Assembly (NCBI GenBank): GCA_903856875.1
Contig: CAIODE010000403.1
Location: 1 to 9,268 of the forward strand
From: an uncultured Burkholderiales bacterium
GTDB taxonomy: Bacteria > Pseudomonadota > Gammaproteobacteria > Burkholderiales > Burkholderiaceae_C
Length of the DNA stretch: 9,268 nt
Direction: 5' to 3'
Under the pieces are notes generated by a model. It searched no databases. It was not told the origin of the DNA and saw nothing but the letters and a program-made list of their open reading frames with translations. Shown one piece after another: positions 932-1,933 of the stretch (position 1 is its first letter; every line of letters starts with the position of its first letter). The translations under genes were made by a program, and so were the position numbers.

Positions 932-1933
932 TTAGCTGTCTTCGGAATAGCCGACCAGCTTGTCGCTCAGGTCCCACAACTGAATGCCCAGGCTTTCACG
1001 TGTGGCCTTGGCCGATAAGGGTTGCGCAAAAGCAGGGCGGCCCGGCTTTTGACGATTGCCCCAACTCCAATGCACGCCAGAAGTTGCAAACTCCGAATCG
1101 ATGACCACTTGGGCCACGCGTTCACCAGCCAAGGATTGCGTGACATAGCCCTTGGTGATATTTTTTTGAAACCAAGGAAATATGGTTTGAAAGGCTTTGG
1201 GCGTGTCTCTGAACAAAGCGGTGTCTGCTACACAACCTGGATACACCGTGCCAAAAATGATGCCGGTGCTGTCGTGATACCGACGATGCAATTCGCGGCT
1301 GATGATCATGTTGCAAAGCTTGCTGTCTTTGTAGGCCTTGCCCGCTTTGAATTCTTTGCCATTGATCATGGAGATGGGGTCTAGGAAGCCTTGCTCCAGA
1401 CCTTCCAATTGGCCCAAATCGGCTGGCGCAGGAATGGGCACTTTGCCGCCAAACTCTTCAGAATTGGCCGTGACGGTACCCAAGGTCATTAAACGTGCCC
1501 GAAAATCTGGACGGGTCAATTGTTCCTGAGCTTGTGTTTGCAATAGCAACTTCAACATCAAGCGACTGAGCAAAAAATGCCCCAAGTGATTGGTGGCAAC
1601 ACTCAGCTCAAAACCTTCAGGAGATCGGACAGGGCTTTTTAAACGAGGCTGATAAGAGGCTGCGTTGTTCAGCAGTGCATGCAATGGCCAGTCTTTGGCA
1701 AGATAAGCGGCCACAAAATCTCGCACACTTTGCAAAGAACCTAGATCCAACTTCATGATGGTGAAGTGCGTAGGATTCAAATTCATGTCAGAGGCGACGC
1801 GCTGAGTTTTTGCAATATCGCGGCAGGCCATGATCACATGCCAGCCGCGGCGTATCAGGGAATCGGTTGCATAAAGTCCAACACCTGAAGAAGCACCGGT
1901 CACAATTACGCAGGGGCGTTGAATAGAGGTCAT
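932..1933 (-). CDS. por: Light-dependent protochlorophyllide oxidoreductase (LPOR)-like short-chain dehydrogenase
   Basis: This 333-residue protein looks like LPOR, which uses NADPH and a photon to reduce the C17-C18 double bond of protochlorophyllide. The Rossmann nucleotide motif TGASSGVG is at 12-19. LPOR-specific blocks follow: MACRD (35-39, Cys37), TNHLGHFLLSRL (114-125), the catalytic pair Tyr201/Lys205 in AYKDSKLCNM (Cys207), the HRRYH-to-YPGC stretch (216-234, Cys234), FQKNITKGYVT (255-265), SGVHWSWGN (285-293) and the C-terminal LWDLSDKLVG. Length fits the bacterial enzyme, without a plastid transit peptide. Where cyanobacterial and plant enzymes have Cys in the CNAA motif, this protein has Asn89 (NNAAS); Tyr94 is kept. 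A loop around 130-145 appears longer by about eight residues. The reading frame extends to a TTG at 2014, but that extension is not LPOR-like, so the ATG at 1933 is chosen; its Shine-Dalgarno is weak. Divergent from an alpha/beta hydrolase gene and upstream of the dioxygenase. Family membership is clear; actual photoactivity and role in bacteriochlorophyll synthesis are inferred. Confidence 0.9.
   Translation of the reverse strand: MTSIQRPCVIVTGASSGVGLYATDSLIRRGWHVIMACRDIAKTQRVASDMNLNPTHFTIMKLDLGSLQSVRDFVAAYLAKDWPLHALLNNAASYQPRLKSPVRSPEGFELSVATNHLGHFLLSRLMLKLLLQTQAQEQLTRPDFRARLMTLGTVTANSEEFGGKVPIPAPADLGQLEGLEQGFLDPISMINGKEFKAGKAYKDSKLCNMIISRELHRRYHDSTGIIFGTVYPGCVADTALFRDTPKAFQTIFPWFQKNITKGYVTQSLAGERVAQVVIDSEFATSGVHWSWGNRQKPGRPAFAQPLSAKATRESLGIQLWDLSDKLVGYSEDS

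Follow-up and report, generated by a model that had tools for sequence, protein, structure and literature searches.

An intact gene for light-dependent protochlorophyllide oxidoreductase, next to a photosynthesis-linked hydrolase gene, in a genome assigned to Limnohabitans

Our analysis of a 9,268-nucleotide stretch of DNA (the window) revealed an intact gene for the light-dependent NADPH:protochlorophyllide oxidoreductase (LPOR), a genuine member of its family, at positions 932..1933 on the minus strand. LPOR belongs to the very small group of light-driven enzymes, and it has a dark-working counterpart, DPOR. Lying in a Limnohabitans genome with genes for DPOR, AcsF, and a type II reaction center, the window LPOR is predicted to use a photon together with NADPH to reduce protochlorophyllide and likely provides an oxygen-tolerant second route to bacteriochlorophyll a, a reading to which we assign a probability of about 0.9. 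This route would supply bacteriochlorophyll in daylight, next to DPOR; that the protein is driven by light, tolerates oxygen in vivo, and shares the work with DPOR are all predictions. The finding is of a selectively maintained LPOR in a phototroph equipped with DPOR genes as well, and its presence or absence at one site in close relatives makes what LPOR adds to an aerobic phototroph testable by comparison. The more interesting part, as yet unexplained, is the recurrent hydrolase partner of LPOR together with the mobility of LPOR along the borders of the photosynthesis gene cluster.

The gene runs from an ATG at 1933 to a stop at 932 and encodes 333 amino acids; the plus-strand translation of 932-1933 contains 7 stops. 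In a profile search, the protein scored 438.7 bits against NCBIfam TIGR01289 (LPOR), 107 bits above the cut-off of 331.35, and the other families among the best 25 of 120 matches remained far under their own cut-offs. The preliminary description had recognized LPOR by five motifs (YKDSK, KLCNM, YPGC, FQKNITKGYV, and SGVHWSWGN); all five were found in the translation and, with the profile score, bear that identification out. Seven solved LPOR sequences were the best PDB matches, the closest being cyanobacterial (6l1h, 434 bits), to which residues 4-330 of the window protein align over the full length. The likeness to the cyanobacterial LPOR (Thermosynechococcus; PDB 6l1h, 6rnw, and 6r46) extends to the NADPH motif, the Tyr/Lys pair, and the equivalents of Cys199 and Cys226. 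GASSGVG occupies residues 13-19, and Tyr201 and Lys205 correspond to Tyr193 and Lys197 of the Thermosynechococcus protein; Gly13, Gly19, Tyr201, and Lys205, which represent the GxxxGxG and Tyr-x-x-x-Lys patterns, are each invariant in 84/84 LPOR rows. The cysteines that we take to be the conserved ones of LPOR are numbered 37, 89, 199, and 226, and the window protein keeps three of the four, as Cys37, Cys207, and Cys234. The last is equivalent to Cys226 in Thermosynechococcus numbering and is cysteine in all 84 rows. Unlike the cyanobacterial enzyme, the window protein has eight extra residues near 131 and carries Asn in place of Cys89, and its host holds type II reaction-center and bacteriochlorophyll genes.

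The window corresponds to contig C403 in a MAG of 2.6 Mb (592 contigs, 88.9% complete), and we assign the host, a freshwater bacterium, to the genus Limnohabitans. The closest named record, among the best 80 of 570 confirmed loci, is a Lake Baikal Limnohabitans MAG (hereafter Baikal), with an LPOR 95% identical to that of the window. A check of the window's own genome, which the preliminary description had proposed, recovered bchLNB, bchXYZ, acsF, and pufL (PufL, 320 bits), whereas PufM was not found in this fragmented MAG, in which pufL ends <90 bases from its contig end. BchB scored 626 bits, BchL (445 bits) and AcsF (465 bits) lie together on contig C21, and BchO (266.7 bits) lies on contig C498; bchF, ppaA, ppsR, bchC, bchX, bchY, bchZ, and pufB are also present, along with parts of bchH and bchG and with bchN in pieces on two contigs. 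These contigs, C322 and C478, show small differences in the stretch of bchN that they share, and the MAG may mix two strains there. Judging by these matches, the genome encodes both protochlorophyllide reductases, LPOR and DPOR. By the rule of Chernomor et al. (PMC7947762), an aerobic anoxygenic phototrophic (AAP) host has BchLNB, a type II reaction center, AcsF and/or BchE, and no RuBisCO and/or PRK; BchL, BchN, BchB, AcsF, and a type II reaction center are present here, the last represented by PufL alone.

Could the protein be a diverged SDR of other function that merely resembles LPOR? The Asn at residue 89 might suggest so, as this position is Cys in 28/29 cyanobacterial rows and in the Thermosynechococcus protein. 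Asn89 occurs in 21/84 LPOR rows, Cys89 is missing from 23/84 and Cys37 from 14/84, and the four-cysteine set is thus not defining for the family. Against a diverged SDR, the other residues that we checked are all kept, and the TIGR01289 score stands well clear of its cut-off. A tree of 84 LPORs and two SDRs of the window's own genome (of 93 LPORs, eight duplicates and one interrupted copy had been removed) nested the window protein within a starred set of ten Limnohabitans rows (99/98). Both SDRs fell outside the LPORs, as the preliminary description would have it for a true LPOR, although the fork that unites all LPORs (95/92) is to be read with the very long SDR branches and an unsettled bootstrap in mind. 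Taken together, these data make a diverged SDR very improbable. We regard as equally improbable the possibility that the LPOR is an orphan with some other function, either because its host is not a phototroph or because the contig was misbinned with one. In its favor, none of the nine main ORFs of the window contig matched a photosynthesis-specific family above the cut-off, and no photosynthesis gene was present in the 20 kb inspected of the Baikal contig. As the MAG is fragmented and has its photosynthesis genes on contigs other than this one, the linkage of LPOR to them rests on binning and synteny. Yet the genome itself holds pufL, bchXYZ, bchLNB, and acsF, the nine window proteins tested match the Baikal Limnohabitans record in order with 92-98% identity, and two LPOR-less congeners (G469 and G479) have the dioxygenase, hydrolase, and permease genes around the same site. 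Of the two possibilities that the preliminary description had left side by side, an LPOR that works beside BchLNB or an orphan in a non-phototroph, the first is supported insofar as an AAP-type LPOR coexists with DPOR genes, and the second finds no support in a genome with reaction-center and bch genes.

A further alternative is that LPOR, redundant with DPOR, is a relic in the course of being lost from the genus. LPOR is indeed dispensable in Limnohabitans, being present in 11/90 genomes against 61/90 with reaction-center genes. Among good genomes (n=56; >=90% complete and <=5% contaminated, the window genome not among them), a reaction center was found in 6/6 LPOR carriers versus 37/50 non-carriers (p = 0.32, not significant), and across all 90 genomes in 8/11 versus 53/79 (p = 1). 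The three carriers without reaction-center genes (G445, G455, and G460) are 80-89% complete; in G445, bchG and bchP are neighbors of LPOR, G460 has bchX, bchY, and bchZ, and BchB is encoded by the genome behind locus L011, which carries the same LPOR as G460. This patchy presence would fit a gene on its way out, as would an interrupted copy in G450, an in-frame fusion of LPOR with the dioxygenase in the Baikal record, and the absence of LPOR from the site in G469, which groups with the window in a tree of dioxygenase and hydrolase (96/92). Nevertheless, the window gene is intact, and comparison with the Baikal copy over the first 330 codons (NG86) yielded a dN of 0.030, a dS of 0.51, and a dN/dS of ~0.06, indicating that LPOR has been under purifying selection since the two split. 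We therefore consider a relic unlikely, albeit less so than the two previous alternatives, and favor a functional, light-driven enzyme kept alongside DPOR.

The history of the window site can be partly read from its relatives. G469 and G479, which lack LPOR, keep the window's order of dioxygenase, hydrolase, and permease genes with a short gap, and an alignment of the site revealed LPOR as an extra segment in the window and in Baikal. The grouping of the window with G469 rather than with Baikal in the dioxygenase and hydrolase tree suggests that LPOR was probably present in a common ancestor and then lost in G469, or else that recombination exchanged it. The hydrolase gene lies 1.3-1.4 kb from bchP in six LPOR-less relatives (G481, G446, G415, G427, G453, and G434); the hydrolase and bchP thus appear to have parted in the window lineage. 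In Baikal, LPOR and the intradiol dioxygenase form a single in-frame ORF of 633 amino acids in which both families are recognized (locus L150, G422:C6, 806-2707, minus strand; L010 is the same DNA). Relative to the window, ~110 bases are missing there, and with them the stop of LPOR and the start of the dioxygenase. The fusion was seen in one MAG record and may be an assembly error. No other such fusion was present among the best 120 of 1028 homologues (7994 candidates scored), of which the best, at 480 bits, was an LPOR-length match, and the titles and abstract openings among the literature matches listed for LPOR with a dioxygenase mentioned none.

Within the genus, LPOR was mapped to three sites. 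At the first (G410, which is strain 15K, with G464, G467, and G445), LPOR occupies one border of the photosynthesis cluster, at a distance of 1.7-3.4 kb from bchP. The second site (G450, G419, and G452) is at the opposite border, where LPOR is next to a second bchC-like gene, the hydrolase gene, and crtE; at L011, a bchC-like piece is directly upstream of LPOR. The third site is that of the window and Baikal, with LPOR between the dioxygenase and the hydrolase, by the dipeptide transporter. The Limnohabitans rows of the LPOR tree formed three starred subclades, namely, window plus Baikal (100/99), L011/L013/L095/L096 (99/99, L096 being G455), and L012/L014/L015/L098 (100/100), and every row with a mapped site fell into the matching subclade; the tree does not include the interrupted G450 copy. 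This correspondence of three sites and three subclades suggests that, on more than one occasion within the genus, LPOR has probably been gained at, or relocated to, cluster borders. Mapped Limnohabitans LPORs sit at a photosynthesis-cluster border or, in the window, by a photosynthesis-linked hydrolase; in the window lineage, LPOR and the hydrolase form a small group by a dipeptide transporter, and the available contig bears no further photosynthesis gene. The interrupted copy (L099, G450:C16:732814-733785) is broken by an in-frame TGA (codon 116 of 322 in the matched LPOR stretch), in a genome with a reaction center, and is likely a recent pseudogene, if not a sequencing error. The second bchC-like gene (48-50% to Roseobacter bchC) was also observed divergent to the hydrolase gene at a cluster border in G410, G450, G419, G452, G465, G436, and G463.

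An LPOR in Limnohabitans is already in print, and the window gene adds another member. Chernomor et al. list 36 LPORs outside cyanobacteria, with Limnohabitans sp. 15K among those previously known, report activity in at least one of two assays for 10/11 AAPB LPORs tested, and place one Gemmatimonadetes LPOR as sister to Limnohabitans; the main-text passages found on gene clusters do not discuss LPOR neighborhoods (PMC7947762). A 2025 review repeats the argument from oxygen tolerance (PMC12654162). The 15K LPOR is 76% identical to that of the window and resembles it in family, in genus, and in having a phototrophic host with DPOR, yet the 15K-type genes (G410, G464, G467, and G445) lie near bchP, whereas the window gene lies between dioxygenase and hydrolase. 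In our tree, two Gemmatimonadota LPORs (L018 and L020) were sister to the Limnohabitans group with L016 and L017 (fork 90/91, not starred) and have Asn89 in common with it; they belong to a different phylum, had no photosynthesis-cluster gene in the available flank, and other Gemmatimonadota rows fell elsewhere. Our wider survey drew on the best 80 of 570 confirmed loci, a set that favors close relatives of the window gene in its division into 51 non-cyanobacterial and 29 cyanobacterial loci (the latter assigned by record title), with flanks of differing length. Among 51 LPOR genomes from this set (the window's own and 50 of the 51 non-cyanobacterial ones, L086 being left out), whose records vary in completeness, BchB exceeded its cut-off in 44; five others had BchB pieces under the cut-off (208-384 bits), several of which begin where a contig ends, one had a weak match alone (86 bits), and one had none. 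Nothing in these 51 genomes points to LPOR replacing DPOR.

The gene upstream of LPOR, at 2136..3062 on the plus strand and divergent to it, encodes an alpha/beta hydrolase that tracks photosynthesis in the genus. It was detected (E <= 1e-60) in 47/90 genomes. Among the 56 good genomes, a reaction center was present in 33/33 carriers versus 10/23 non-carriers (Fisher p = 6.1e-7), and among all 90 in 42/47 versus 19/43 (p = 4.6e-6), p-values that are rough given that kin genomes are not independent. In the 22 genomes in which its position was mapped (21 and the window), it lay <=1.4 kb from crtE in eight and from bchP in seven (15/22), and by neither in the window, G422, G469, G479, G429, G480, and G407 (7/22), some of them on short contigs. 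Beyond the genus, within the best 80 of 570 loci, a homologue was found <=1.5 kb upstream of LPOR in 21/51 non-cyanobacterial loci, in 20 of them as the immediate neighbor within 210 bases, and in 0/29 cyanobacterial loci; <1.2 kb of upstream sequence was available in four of the former and three of the latter. The arrangement varies. In six loci, the hydrolase gene is co-directional at 11-72 bases before LPOR, followed in L029, L035, and L046 by bchI-bchD. Nine Polynucleobacter-type loci have it divergent, between bchO and bchL (and, on contigs that extend far enough, bchB and bchN). It is divergent as well in L063 and L072, next to bchH and bchI, in L031, by bchP and puhE, and in the alphaproteobacterial L021. 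Among the LPOR genomes of the BchB survey, from which L086 was left out, relatives at E <= 1e-50 occur in 41/51 (38 at E <= 1e-70) and none in the other ten. The hydrolase is also encoded by many LPOR-less phototrophs of the genus, which argues for a photosynthesis gene rather than one specific to LPOR.

BchO belongs to the same superfamily, and we considered and rejected it as the identity of this hydrolase, which scored 96.9 bits against TIGR03056 (cut-off 172.55) in a genome with a separate true BchO. In the tree, the hydrolase clade (40 rows, 94/97, not starred) was distinct from the BchO clade (15 rows, 100/99), with warnings of long branches. The closest solved structure by sequence, at 102 bits, was 6i8w, presumably a membrane-anchored bacterial phospholipase, and the hydrolase sequence starts with a hydrophobic stretch; the protein may act in the hydrolysis of a lipid or a pigment precursor. 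A bolder proposal, tentative and in our judgment more doubtful than probable, is that proteobacterial LPOR works with a dedicated, unnamed hydrolase of this kind, BchO-like but distinct and probably membrane-anchored, which is kept by LPOR in at least five neighborhoods and two orientations and could act on a pigment precursor or on membrane lipids that LPOR needs, the pair moving along cluster borders, with LPOR welded to a dioxygenase in one lineage. No paper about this gene appeared among the titles and abstract openings found on the photosynthesis gene cluster and hydrolases, including those on betaproteobacteria. The recurrent hydrolase neighbor is a concrete candidate for some yet unrecognized component in the metabolism of bacteriochlorophyll.

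The neighbors named in the preliminary description were confirmed, namely, the hydrolase, a dipeptide-type ABC transporter, and an intradiol (catechol 1,2-type) dioxygenase, the last at 3..869 on the minus strand, downstream of LPOR and cut by the window end. The accompanying statement that LPOR lies outside a photosynthesis cluster holds insofar as the contig has no bch, crt, or puf gene, but the adjacent hydrolase is photosynthesis-linked in the genus. Moreover, in 24/51 non-cyanobacterial loci of the best 80 of 570, a tblastn search of the available flank with proteins of Roseobacter litoralis detected no gene of the photosynthesis cluster, and with the hydrolase link this makes the window neighborhood less odd than it had seemed. 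LPOR and the hydrolase gene are separated by 202 bp at 1934..2135 (G+C 35.6%), presumably a divergent promoter region. TGT-N12-ACA, which we take to be a PpsR-type site, was not found wholly inside this gap, and one copy spans the hydrolase start (2130-2147); Baikal has one near the hydrolase start, and 13 other divergent LPOR loci scanned had none. The site scan of the gap thus gave no sign of PpsR-type control of LPOR. Elsewhere in the own genome, two copies precede bchC within 100 bases (0.05 expected) and one lies in the bchF-ppaA gap (0.13 expected), with none between bchZ and pufB. The window gave no Rfam match at gathering scores. At 8472-9185 on the minus strand, a DUF1028 protein gene (PF06267, 224 bits) overlaps the start of the dipeptide-transporter ATPase gene. 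Finally, 2 of 10 IMG/VR stretches encode an LPOR (63%); in one of the records, L225, LPOR lies at the edge (909-1850) beside ORFs that by eye resemble a terminase, a methylase, and an IS3 transposase, possibly a prophage beside a bacterial LPOR.
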